Assembly (NCBI GenBank): GCA_015061885.1
Contig: SUVS01000030.1
Span: 1-35,816 of the forward strand
Reading direction: 5' to 3'
Length of the DNA stretch: 35,816 nucleotides
Source of the DNA: Lentisphaerota bacterium
GTDB lineage: Bacteria; Verrucomicrobiota; Lentisphaeria; Victivallales; Victivallaceae
Made by a program: the position numbers and the translations under genes. Each line of letters begins with the position of its first letter. Within the stretch, counting starts at the first letter, position 1. Below the pieces are notes generated by a model. That model made no database searches. It had not been told where the DNA came from and saw only the letters and a list, made by a program, of their open reading frames with translations. This document shows, one piece after another, positions 27,237 through 35,619 of this stretch.

Positions 27237-27689
<453 letters not shown>

Positions 27690-27742: not shown

Positions 27743-27869
27743 ATACTTATTTGATATTGTATTCCATCATTCCTTTTACTTGAAAATGCTGATTAAAAAA
27801 ATGATTTTTTGAATTTTATTTGCCGAAACACTCTTTAAAACAAACACAACAAACAAAAGGAGAGAAAAA

Positions 27870-30800
27870 ATGGCTGTTTTTATTTCAAGCAAATTTTCCA
27901 AAGGTGCCGCATGTCAGTATGATGGCGTAACTTTGAACTACGGTGTAAACGCTTTCAGCAGCGTGGCTGAAGCATACGCTGCCCTCGATGGAATTTATGA
28001 CGCAGTAGTTTTTGCCGATTCCAAAGTTACCCTTTCGGCGGAAGAAATGGCAATGCTTCTCAATGTATCCGGTATTTACGGTAAAGCAGAAGTTTATAAG
28101 GACGAGGCTGGAGATGAGGTTTATCTTAAGGTGTTATTCGCTAATATCAAGGCGGCAAATACTTTGATCATAAAAGATGCTCCCGCCAATGATTACACCA
28201 AATATGTTGAACATCTCCATAATTACGAATTCAACAAGGTTGAAGTTACCAATTCCATTGCCGGTAATATTTCCAAAAGTGTTTATTACACCAGTAAAGT
28301 AAGCAACGAAGATAAAAATGGCATGGTAACAGAAACTACTGCCTATAAAGCTGACGGCAGTGTTACAGTCAAAAATTCCTCTGTCGGCATAATCGCAAAT
28401 TATGCCACGGTCAATCTGACCAATGCTTCAACCGGTGCGATCATCTGCAAACAGTCTTATAAAGCAGAGGATTACGGTTATTGGTATAGCGATGACTGCG
28501 ACAGCTATGTTGACACCTATGTGGAAGGCGGCAGTAGTGATATTGATTACACTGCCGGCGGTACTTTGAATATTGTTCTTGATAAAAATGCCGAAAAAGA
28601 TGCCGTTTATAATATCGGCGAGGGTGATTACTGGTACGGAGGCGAGGAAAGTTATAGTTATCGTACTTTCGGCGTGATCGACGGTTACAACAAAGTAACC
28701 ATTACCGGTCTGGATGGTGTCAAAAATCCTGACAATGCCGCTTATATTCGCGTAAATGGTTCGATCGTCGGCGGCAATCGCGATATGGATTATTATTACG
28801 GCGAATACCATCTGGATTATTATTACGGCGAATACCATCTGGATATGGAGTCTTCCGGTACAGTAAAAATCAGCAATGGCGTTGATGTATATGGTGCAGT
28901 AGCTTATTTTAACAGTGTAACGATTGCATCTGACAGTCATACCGGAGCGATCGTAAACGGCGACGGCAAAGTTGCGGTAAAATATAAATTCGGCAAGGAA
29001 GAAGCCGAAGACTATTATGAGTCAGACTTCATATTCATATATACCATGAATGTTACCGAAACAATAACGCTTACCGGCAGTGTAACAGTAAGCGATTCCG
29101 AAGTCGGCAACATTACTGATTACAAAACAGTTAAGATCACCAACTCCGATGCCGGAAAAATCAAGCTGGATACCCTGACTGAACAAGTTGTTGAATATCG
29201 CAGTGAATACGAACTGGATAAAGATTCTGAAAATAGTAATATGCCTTCACAATATGGTGCTTATTACACTGCAGACGGTTCACTGGTGGTAAAAATCGAC
29301 AAAAATGCAGATAATGATTCTTACACCATCGGCAAATCAACCGAAGACGATGGCAGAGGCGGTTTTGAAGGAGTGTACGACGGCAGCGATGAATACAGTC
29401 TTTATAGCGAAATGGCAGAAAATGCGGCTGTTCTGGGCTATAAAAAAGTCGATATTGCCGGTTATACGGACAAGAAAAATTCCGATAACAACAAGCGTGT
29501 TTATGTAAATGGCAATATTATCGGCGGCGATGCCACTTCATTGTATAATAACTATGAAGGAACTACAAATACCGTATTTACAGCCGGCGGTTCTGCCACA
29601 TTGAGCAATGTTTCTGCCGGAAGTATAAAAGGCTACACCACAGTCAAACTTACCGACAGTGATGTCAGCAATGTTGATAAGCTCACTGACAAATCTGTTG
29701 TAAAAGAAAAATATGAAACTCAAAAATGGTCTGATGGCGAAGGTTACGATAAATATTTGGTTGTTACCGAAACATTTAAGAAAGATGGTTCGCTTACCGC
29801 AAATAATTCAACCGTCGGCGATGTTACCAATTATCAGACCGTAAATCTGCTCAACAGCAATGCCGGAAGAATTGAACGCAATACTCTTGCAAGTACTGAA
29901 ACAAGATACCTTGTAGAGGAATATCAGGACGGCGAGTATATTGATCGGGAGTATTGTTCGTCAGTGTCCGAATACCAGGCAGCCGGTTCTGTAACTGTAA
30001 AACTTGACAAAAATGCTCTGTCGGGCAGCACCGTAGGGGATATTTCCGGTTACGCCAATGTAACTCTTACCGGCTACACCGATAAGAAAAATTCCGACAA
30101 CAACAAAAAAGTCTCGGCAGTAAATATTACCGGCGGCAATTACGAATATGAATATTTTTACGAATATGAACATGAAGATGAGTACATCTATGATCAGATT
30201 GTTACCGGCTCGGTAAAACTTGATAATGCATCGGCAGAGAATATTAGCGGTTTCAAGACAGTTTCGCTTAATAATGCAGAAAGTGCAAATATTACTGCTG
30301 TTCTCTGTCTTGATGTAAACGGTAATGACAGGTACATTGGCTCTTCGGAAGGCGATTACAGCTACAAATCCGGCGATACATTTTACAAATGTTCGTATAA
30401 AACAACTTACAAATTGGCCGATAAAGTTACTGTTGCTCAAAGTACGGTAAACGGAATGATCGCCGGTTACGGCAATGTAACTTGCTCTGGCGGTAGTACG
30501 GTGATGGGTTCCATTATTGCTGGAGACGCTTATAATTATGAATATAAAGAAGAAGCCAAAGAAAGAGGAGAGGATTTTACTTATACTGCAAAAGAAACTT
30601 ATACCACAACTAAAAAGGCATCTGTAACGCTCAAAAATTCCTCTGTCGGCTCCGAAATAGTTGGTTTTTCCAAAGTTGCATTGGTAAACAGCAATGTGAG
30701 CGGCGGCATCAGCCAGGATGGGCTGACATTTACTTATGAAGAAAACGACGAAGAAAGTTACAGCAAGTTGGAATACAAAGCCACCGGCTCCATCAGTATC

Positions 30801-31823
30801 ACAGCCGATAAAAATGCTGAATCATCACTCTATCAAACCGGCTCTATCAGTGGTTACGAAAAAGTGACCATCAGCGGCTATGAGGGTAAAGACGGCAAAG
30901 ATGTATTTATTACCACCGGCAGTATTTATGGCGGTGTTTCCATCTATGAAAGTGATGAAGAATATTACGATTATATGAATCCTCCCACAACAGAACCTGC
31001 TGTCCGGAAAACCTCCGGTTCGGTTACACTCAAAAACAATGTTACAGTCGATGGCAGCATCTGTGGTTATGATAAAGTAACTCTGACAGATGTAACAGTT
31101 ATCGGCGGAATCATGGCAATGGAAGATTATGGCAGCTCGGAAAATCTGCCCGTGGGGAATTCCGTAATTTTGAATGGTGCCGGGGTAGAATATATATCCG
31201 GTTACAAAAATGTGAGTATTGCCAAGGACTGTAATTATGTAGGCGACTATTACGGCTCTTCCGACGCTGATACGCTGACAGTTGCCAAGGGTGCAACTTT
31301 GAATATCGGCAATCTCTCTCTGGGCGATGGTGATAAACTGGTTGTCAAGGGCACGGTAGTATGGGCTGGCGGCTCTTGGGATGTTGAAGCGGAACAAATC
31401 AGCGGTTCCGGCGAAATCGCCGCTTCCGAAGCCAGTCTGGATAGTATAGATCTTGGCTCTTCTTCCAAAGTCAAGCTGGTCAATCTGGGCGACACCGCAG
31501 AAGGTTTTGTCAGCTCGGCTTCTGAAGCTGCTGACAATACCGAGAAAAAAGCAGTCAAGTGGGATGGCTCCGAAGAGTACAACGGCTGGCTCTCCGGCGG
31601 CGGCGACGGCGTGTTGGAAGATACTGTGGACTACATCAAACTTGCCGCACAGAATGACGGTACGCTCTCATTCAGTGCTGCTTTCGGCGAAAGCGATAAG
31701 CTCTGGATCAACGGTAAAAAGTGGGATGGTTCGAATTACAACATATCTGCCGGAACAACCTATACCATTAAACTTGAACGCAACGAAGGCAATTCAATAA
31801 GCTATGAATTGAGTCTGGCGTAA
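27870..31823 (+). CDS. Giant repetitive acidic/tyrosine-rich protein without a signal peptide
   Basis: The 1317-residue protein is preceded by AAGGAG. The first ~110 residues form a unique N-terminal region (MAVFISSKFSKGAACQYDG...). Then come about four modules of ~240 residues. One part of each reads like SVTVKNSSVGxIxxYxTVxLTNSxAG (about residues 164, 404, 640 and, more diverged, 850-917). The other reads like LDKNA...GYxKVTIxGYxDKKNxDN...VNGxIxGG (about 233, 472, 709, 975). Tyr/Asp/Glu-rich insertions follow each. The short glycine-turn strands suggest a beta-helix. The C-terminal ~70 residues (WDGSxYNISAGTTYTIKLE...SYELSLA) form a distinct end domain. No Sec leader, LPXTG, TAT or autotransporter barrel is visible, so secretion, if any, would need a type I-like route. 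Function unknown; adhesin or matrix protein is an inference. Confidence 0.8.
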   Translation: MAVFISSKFSKGAACQYDGVTLNYGVNAFSSVAEAYAALDGIYDAVVFADSKVTLSAEEMAMLLNVSGIYGKAEVYKDEAGDEVYLKVLFANIKAANTLIIKDAPANDYTKYVEHLHNYEFNKVEVTNSIAGNISKSVYYTSKVSNEDKNGMVTETTAYKADGSVTVKNSSVGIIANYATVNLTNASTGAIICKQSYKAEDYGYWYSDDCDSYVDTYVEGGSSDIDYTAGGTLNIVLDKNAEKDAVYNIGEGDYWYGGEESYSYRTFGVIDGYNKVTITGLDGVKNPDNAAYIRVNGSIVGGNRDMDYYYGEYHLDYYYGEYHLDMESSGTVKISNGVDVYGAVAYFNSVTIASDSHTGAIVNGDGKVAVKYKFGKEEAEDYYESDFIFIYTMNVTETITLTGSVTVSDSEVGNITDYKTVKITNSDAGKIKLDTLTEQVVEYRSEYELDKDSENSNMPSQYGAYYTADGSLVVKIDKNADNDSYTIGKSTEDDGRGGFEGVYDGSDEYSLYSEMAENAAVLGYKKVDIAGYTDKKNSDNNKRVYVNGNIIGGDATSLYNNYEGTTNTVFTAGGSATLSNVSAGSIKGYTTVKLTDSDVSNVDKLTDKSVVKEKYETQKWSDGEGYDKYLVVTETFKKDGSLTANNSTVGDVTNYQTVNLLNSNAGRIERNTLASTETRYLVEEYQDGEYIDREYCSSVSEYQAAGSVTVKLDKNALSGSTVGDISGYANVTLTGYTDKKNSDNNKKVSAVNITGGNYEYEYFYEYEHEDEYIYDQIVTGSVKLDNASAENISGFKTVSLNNAESANITAVLCLDVNGNDRYIGSSEGDYSYKSGDTFYKCSYKTTYKLADKVTVAQSTVNGMIAGYGNVTCSGGSTVMGSIIAGDAYNYEYKEEAKERGEDFTYTAKETYTTTKKASVTLKNSSVGSEIVGFSKVALVNSNVSGGISQDGLTFTYEENDEESYSKLEYKATGSISITADKNAESSLYQTGSISGYEKVTISGYEGKDGKDVFITTGSIYGGVSIYESDEEYYDYMNPPTTEPAVRKTSGSVTLKNNVTVDGSICGYDKVTLTDVTVIGGIMAMEDYGSSENLPVGNSVILNGAGVEYISGYKNVSIAKDCNYVGDYYGSSDADTLTVAKGATLNIGNLSLGDGDKLVVKGTVVWAGGSWDVEAEQISGSGEIAASEASLDSIDLGSSSKVKLVNLGDTAEGFVSSASEAADNTEKKAVKWDGSEEYNGWLSGGGDGVLEDTVDYIKLAAQNDGTLSFSAAFGESDKLWINGKKWDGSNYNISAGTTYTIKLERNEGNSISYELSLA
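28788..28841 (+). repeat. 27-bp tandem duplication inside the giant gene
   Basis: Two perfect copies (28788-28814, 28815-28841) encode DYYYGEYHL twice, a recent in-frame expansion of a tyrosine-rich insertion. Confidence 0.95.
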
Positions 31824-34792: not shown

Positions 34793-34905
34793 CTGTTGCA
34801 ATGTTTGAACCTTGAATCTCAACGCAGAACCGGCAGCAACGGGCAGTTTATGGCTGCCGGGTTGCCATGAACAATATTTCCGAACGCTCAAGGAGGGGGA
34901 GTCGT

Positions 34906-35619
34906 ATGAAAAATAAAGTAAAAATTTTGCCGATAGCATTGACAGGATGTTTTTTGGCCGGATGCACCTGTTACAATACTCATGTTCCCGGCCGTTATAT
35001 CAACCACGGAGCAACTCCCGGCGGAATAGATATTTTTTTCTGTAATCTTGACTACATACTTTTCCCGCCGCAACGGGGGTATGTGGCGGCACCTCCTCCC
35101 CCGCCGCCGGCTCCAGTGCCGGTGGCAGTGGCTCCTGCTCCCCGACCGGTTGTGGTGGTACCTCCTCCCCCGCCGCCGGCTCCAGTGCCGGTGGCAGTGG
35201 TTCCTGCTCCCCGACCGGTTGTGATCATTAATAATAAGGGGCATAATCACGGAAAACACGGATCATACCATAAACCGGCTCCGTCTCATAAACCCGCTCC
35301 CACGCACAAACCGAAACCTTCTGCAAGTGTTCCCAGCCGTCCGTCAACTGTAAGTCGTCCGTCAACTGTAAGTCGTCCGTCAACTGTAAGTCGTCCATCG
35401 ACATCGCGCCGTCCTTCAACGGTCAGCCGTCCATCGACATCGCGCCGTCCTTCAACGGTCAGCCGTCCATCGACATCGCGCCGTCCTTCAACGGTCAGCC
35501 GTCCATCGGCATCGGGGCGAAATTCGACATTCAGCAGCCACCGGGCAAGTTCATCCGGCTCAACAAGCGGCGGCAGAGTTTCTTCTGTGGCAGGAAAGAG
35601 TCAGTATATGGAGGACTGA
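34906..35619 (+). CDS. Repeat-rich lipoprotein with proline and Ser/Arg/Pro repeats
   Basis: The 237-residue precursor has a lipoprotein leader ending LAGC (Cys20); a second possible lipobox LTGC (Cys15) is five residues earlier. The mature protein has a short unique part (about 20-62), two 23-residue proline/valine repeats (PPPPPPAPVPVAV..PAPRPVV), a His/Lys/Pro linker, then SRPSTV/SRRPSTV repeats and a Ser/Gly tail. It looks like a surface or periplasm-spanning stalk of unknown function. I use the ATG at 34906 because AAGGAGGGGGAG precedes it and gives a proper leader; the frame extends to 34867. TGA stop. Confidence 0.8.
   Translation: MKNKVKILPIALTGCFLAGCTCYNTHVPGRYINHGATPGGIDIFFCNLDYILFPPQRGYVAAPPPPPPAPVPVAVAPAPRPVVVVPPPPPPAPVPVAVVPAPRPVVIINNKGHNHGKHGSYHKPAPSHKPAPTHKPKPSASVPSRPSTVSRPSTVSRPSTVSRPSTSRRPSTVSRPSTSRRPSTVSRPSTSRRPSTVSRPSASGRNSTFSSHRASSSGSTSGGRVSSVAGKSQYMED
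35091..35228 (+). repeat. Two 69-bp direct repeats in the lipoprotein gene
   Basis: Copies start at 35091 and 35160 and are nearly identical; they encode the 23-residue Pro/Val repeat. Confidence 0.9.
35333..35512 (+). repeat. 18-bp and 36-bp tandem repeats in the lipoprotein gene
   Basis: CCGTCAACTGTAAGTCGT is repeated about three times. A 36-bp higher-order unit with CCATCGACATCGCGCCGTCC and TTCAACGGTCAGCCGT follows, also three times. All are in frame. Confidence 0.85.

Follow-up and report, generated by a model that had tools for sequence, protein, structure and literature searches.

A family of leaderless proteins with predicted beta-helix and PPC-type ends in Victivallaceae, and a candidate type I export route

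How could a large repetitive protein without a Sec leader be brought to the outside of its cell? The question is raised by a gene at 27870..31823 on the plus strand of a 35,816-nucleotide stretch (contig SUVS01000030.1 of assembly GCA_015061885.1; the window, below, is this whole stretch) from the genome of an uncultured Victivallaceae bacterium, here called G000. Its product, P0001, lacks such a leader and is probably a surface adhesin that a HlyB/HlyD-type type I secretion system exports. The fold and family of P0001 are well supported. Type I secretion, one of two roles that the original prediction considered for the C-terminal end, is still the best reading, though support for it is indirect. 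Relatives encode the exporter, and in some of these it adjoins related proteins; in the incomplete metagenome-assembled genome (MAG) G000 itself it was not found. P0001 belongs to a family of leaderless proteins with predicted beta-helix and PPC-type ends that so far has no name.

Architecture and predicted fold of P0001

P0001 has nine cysteines and no meaningful match in Pfam, NCBIfam or PDB sequence searches. The modular repeat protein of 1317 residues first noted from the sequence is confirmed, with four modules now placed at residues 160-1095, and the reported absence of a Sec leader holds for P0001. The gene and its parts are as follows.

27859..27862, plus strand: ribosome-binding site GGAG, 7 nt 5' of the ATG, read in the sequence
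27870..31823, plus strand: P0001, open reading frame for a leaderless modular protein of 1317 aa
27870..28229, plus strand: N-terminal region (roughly residues 1-120), also present in four paralogues, where it opens the common platform
28347..29063, plus strand: module 1, residues 160-398
29064..29777, plus strand: module 2, residues 399-636
29778..30494, plus strand: module 3, residues 637-875
30567..31154, plus strand: module 4, residues 900-1095, continuing into the C-terminal beta-helix
31014..31487, plus strand: predicted C-terminal beta-helix, residues 1049-1206
31521..31820, plus strand: predicted C-terminal PPC/collagen-binding-type sandwich, residues 1218-1317, the proposed export end

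The N-terminal region is modelled with a predicted local distance difference test (pLDDT) score of 78-93 up to residue 80. When the model is compared with solved structures, the beta-helix matches Vag8, antigen 43 and pertactin, which supports the fold that had been guessed from the sequence. The modelled chain then finishes in a sandwich of the PPC fold, the closest solved structures of which include collagenase collagen-binding/PPC domains (5iku, 1nqd, 5sv5). P0001 is predicted, on this model, to form a long beta-helix with a PPC-type sandwich as its cap, so that the end once suspected to be a new sorting tag does not appear to be a new fold.

A C-terminal region shared by six genes

The last ~220 residues of P0001 are common to six proteins of G000 (2.96 Mb in 98 contigs, 89.11% complete, 5.48% contaminated), the other five being 32-38% identical to P0001 there. 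The C-terminal end is thus a conserved domain, as had been proposed, and the family that was not recognised has no name but is not isolated. The paralogues measure 861 aa (contig C66), 1258 aa (C65), 1380 aa (C25) and 2307 aa (C77), and a fifth is a contig-cut piece of 308 residues (C43). AIDA stalk repeats are found in the C65 paralogue (PF16168, E 2e-16), and an N-terminal peptidase C10 domain in that of C77 (PF01640, E 2e-11). The N-terminal region of P0001 has a direct BLAST match in C66 and is linked to C65, C25 and C77 indirectly, by aligned starts and a chain of mutual BLAST matches. Other front parts precede it in C65 and C77. Members whose C-terminus was seen all finish in the C-terminal domain, whichever front part they carry. 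In the protein database, 14 proteins, P0001 included, match the C-terminal region, and six of these 14 carry PF16168. These sequences are most naturally read as a common platform to which front domains may be added.

Two smaller observations concern C77. Several immunoglobulin (Ig)-like repeats can be seen by eye in its 2307-aa paralogue (L018 1866-8789), besides the peptidase domain. A 65-residue open frame on the minus strand of the same contig (G000:C77:22536-22700) matches residues 1259-1314 of P0001 at 42% and is perhaps a gene remnant.

The AIDA stalk repeats in paralogues, together with the predicted beta-helix fold that P0001 shares with the passengers of AIDA-I, antigen 43 and Vag8, could point to a type V autotransporter or another beta-barrel route. 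Such a route is barely credible for P0001, which unlike those passengers has neither a Sec leader nor a C-terminal barrel. No Pfam match to the barrel (PF03797) is found in P0001, whose predicted end is a sandwich, and at E<=1e-10 PF03797 occurs in only 2/137 Victivallales genomes, neither of them G000 nor any carrier of the C-terminal domain. The type V candidate is disfavoured on these grounds, and the earlier remark that no autotransporter barrel is seen is upheld.

Distribution of the domain and of the exporter

Genomes with a match to the C-terminal profile (A1) at E<=0.001 are called carriers, and those with a match at E<=1e-30 strong carriers. There are 32 carriers among the 137 Victivallales genomes, eight of them strong (G000, G020, G021, G098, G115, G120, G121 and G123); G020 belongs to the same family as the window's genome, Victivallaceae, which is part of Lentisphaerota, so the phylum named in the original prediction was correct. 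In a phylum sample, A1 matches occur in 22 of the 387 genomes drawn, one of which, with a weak match, lies outside Victivallales. G115 has 11 matches to the domain, and its member at L152 541-15189 is a leaderless protein of 4882 aa without Pfam match at E<=0.001.

The HlyD adaptor (TIGR01843) scores above cut-off in 92 of the 137 genomes (93 at E<=1e-30). It is present in 28/32 carriers, including 17/17 that are >=90% complete and <=5% contaminated and six of the seven strong carriers other than G000, versus 65/105 non-carriers (30/44 of high quality); one-sided Fisher tests that ignore relatedness give p 0.004 for all genomes and 0.005 for those of high quality. The four carriers without HlyD (G000, G096, G119 and G120) are each <=89% complete.

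All four genomes of the same genus (G001-G004) encode a HlyB/HlyD pair, and a few genes off lies an rsmE-type gene (PF04452) that is 71-78% identical among them. Neither an HlyD adaptor of the relatives' kind nor this rsmE-type gene was found in the 89%-complete G000, in searches that had no positive-control query. Because the neighbour is missing too, the lack of HlyD is ascribed to an assembly gap, and we read the loss of exporter and rsmE as one missing stretch. An exporter not seen in the assembly, together with nine cysteines and no recognisable leader, would also suit a cytosolic protein or inclusion of unassigned use. This alternative is improbable, however, given that paralogues carry the same end behind AIDA stalks or a peptidase C10 domain, and that beta-helix and PPC folds are typical of extracellular proteins.

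Proteins beside hlyB in relatives

The search for a linked exporter, advised in the original prediction, yields none in G000 but does find HlyB/HlyD in relatives, where a related protein or its end adjoins hlyB in 5 of 28 hlyB/hlyD loci (G002, G004, G024, G035 and G039), several of the 28 being cut by contig ends. In G035, a leaderless protein of 784 residues ends ~550 bp upstream of hlyB; it matches PF16168 (E 1.2e-6) and contains four PPC domains (E 6e-24). The neighbours in G002 (2306 residues) and G004 (>2377 residues) are divergent leaderless proteins that finish in PPC-type ends, and that in G024 is a contig-cut protein of 741 residues that matches the domain weakly (E 4e-4). The G039 piece, 39 codons at the start of a contig, matches the profile of family tails (E 7e-9) and ends ~170 bp before hlyB. 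Outside these five, G076 has a tail of the family type (E 3e-8) on a contig-cut piece ~5 kb from hlyD.

The end of the G035 protein aligns with that of P0001 in plain BLASTP (30% over 119 columns, E 0.003 for two sequences). When a profile built from 19 family ends is compared with one of six PPC-type domains, taken from four giant proteins (G002, G004, G028 and G035), two of them exporter-linked, the match has a probability of 96.2; 30 column shuffles reach at most 1.3 and a reversed profile 0.9, and the match is favoured to some degree by both sets having been cut around a similar motif.

The Por_Secre_tail model (PF18962) matches two G035 proteins at their ends (E 9e-14 and 1e-12), which raises the possibility of a type IX-like route that would use the C-terminal domain for sorting. 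A type IX route requires a Sec leader. P0001 has none, PF18962 finds no match in it at E up to 10, and one of the two G035 proteins adjoins hlyB; judged by its own sequence, P0001 was rejected as a type IX substrate on the first two counts, and the route is very improbable overall.

The pump and its variants

The relatives' HlyB-like proteins (~850 aa) resemble HlyB-type exporters with a C39-like domain and differ from them in some respects. Three were scanned with TIGR01846 and score 641-660 bits, below the cut-off of 725.55, and L072 5578-8130 (G001) and L070 2525-5077 (G024) have ~140 extra N-terminal residues. The C39 model (PF03412) matches 4/4 scanned, in two stretches in 2/4, suggesting doubled C39-like domains. 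The putative place of the catalytic Cys, from an alignment made by eye, reads Ser or Thr in the seven HlyB sequences compared, so that their C39-like domains appear to lack this residue. A review links such C39-like domains both to RTX cargo and to large cargo whose signals are C-terminal (PMC8277102).

Weighing type I export

Several observations count against type I export of P0001, besides the adaptor missing from G000. Within Victivallaceae (78 genomes, hand count), HlyD is present in 25/29 carriers versus 38/49 non-carriers, so there is no clear exporter enrichment inside the family. G096, G119 and G120 (61-78% complete) are three further carriers without adaptor, and many of the carriers that are not strong have weak, partial domain matches only. 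No matching protein stands next to hlyB in 23/28 loci, and no full-length strong member stands beside an exporter in the stretches fetched. The Pfam PPC model (PF04151) has no match in P0001 at E up to 10. Canonical GGxGxDxU repeats number zero in 20 family entries scanned (19 distinct proteins), and P0001 is therefore not classed as an RTX protein; large substrates of type I secretion usually bear such repeats (PMC8277102).

Some of these points favour a different role for the sandwich. In other proteins, domains of the PPC type bind collagen or are trimmed off, so the end of P0001 may serve for binding or capping instead of as a signal. On this account it would be a ligand-binding or capping (collagen-binding-like) domain of a surface protein exported via another part or route, in keeping with the nearest solved folds, the absence of RTX repeats and the lack of a full-length strong member linked to an exporter. 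This is rather unlikely: the sandwich is the extreme end behind any front part, and the proteins beside hlyB in G002, G004 and G035 likewise finish in PPC-type domains.

Under type I export, we propose that the PPC-type domain carries the export signal. A HlyB/HlyD-type system would export P0001 without a Sec leader and would handle the C-terminal beta-helix and PPC-type sandwich as the end. The last ~220-250 residues would serve as a common export and display end fused to varied front parts, be it an AIDA stalk, peptidase C10 and Ig-like domains, or the ~240-residue modules of P0001. The chain might cross in one step through ABC pump, adaptor and TolC-type channel, and may fold outside the cell into a long, acidic, Tyr-rich fibre.

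P0001 most likely behaves as a large type I adhesin does, but has another kind of export end. The LapA-like adhesins DVU1012 and DVU1545 of Desulfovibrio vulgaris (PMC5646257) are likewise large, acidic and repetitive with few cysteines, and DVU1545 is exported by the pump encoded beside DVU1012, a precedent for substrates encoded away from their pump. Unlike these adhesins, the P0001 family lacks canonical RTX repeats and ends in a predicted PPC-type sandwich, and no such pump was found in G000. The end also differs from PF04151/collagenase domains in having no Pfam match and in being terminal in leaderless giants. If P0001 is exported in this way, the cargo range of type I pumps would widen beyond RTX proteins, and the family end would offer a tag by which hidden surface proteins could be found in a phylum that has been little studied, as well as a display end for adhesins and proteases that can be put to the test.

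(AAGC)n tracts and other repeats

One further feature precedes the P0001 gene.

27545..27624, plus strand: (AAGC)20 tract, 245 bp upstream of the P0001 gene, candidate phase-variation element

G000 has three (AAGC)n tracts with >=5 copies: that of the window, one at C65:47067-47178 and one at C47:10320-10407, the last at a contig end. The C65 tract has the orientation of the C65 paralogue and lies ~720 bp upstream of it, separated by one small open reading frame, and a similar hairpin follows both readable tracts (window and C65). Tracts of >=8 copies occur in 20/78 Victivallaceae genomes, 10 of the 20 being domain carriers. Judged from its sequence, the (AAGC)20 tract is a possible phase-variation element. 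Tentatively, and with some doubt, the whole might be an RTX-free type I platform of Victivallaceae, in which a beta-helix with a PPC-type sandwich would be the end for export and display, recognised by HlyB pumps with doubled C39-like domains and fused to interchangeable adhesins and proteases, some of them (AAGC)n-switched.

Elsewhere in the window, positions 719-1304 hold seven tandem copies of 84 bp that are 91% alike, and a 250-aa open reading frame without Pfam match (34867-35619) overlaps tandem repeats of 18, 36, 69 and 72 bp.
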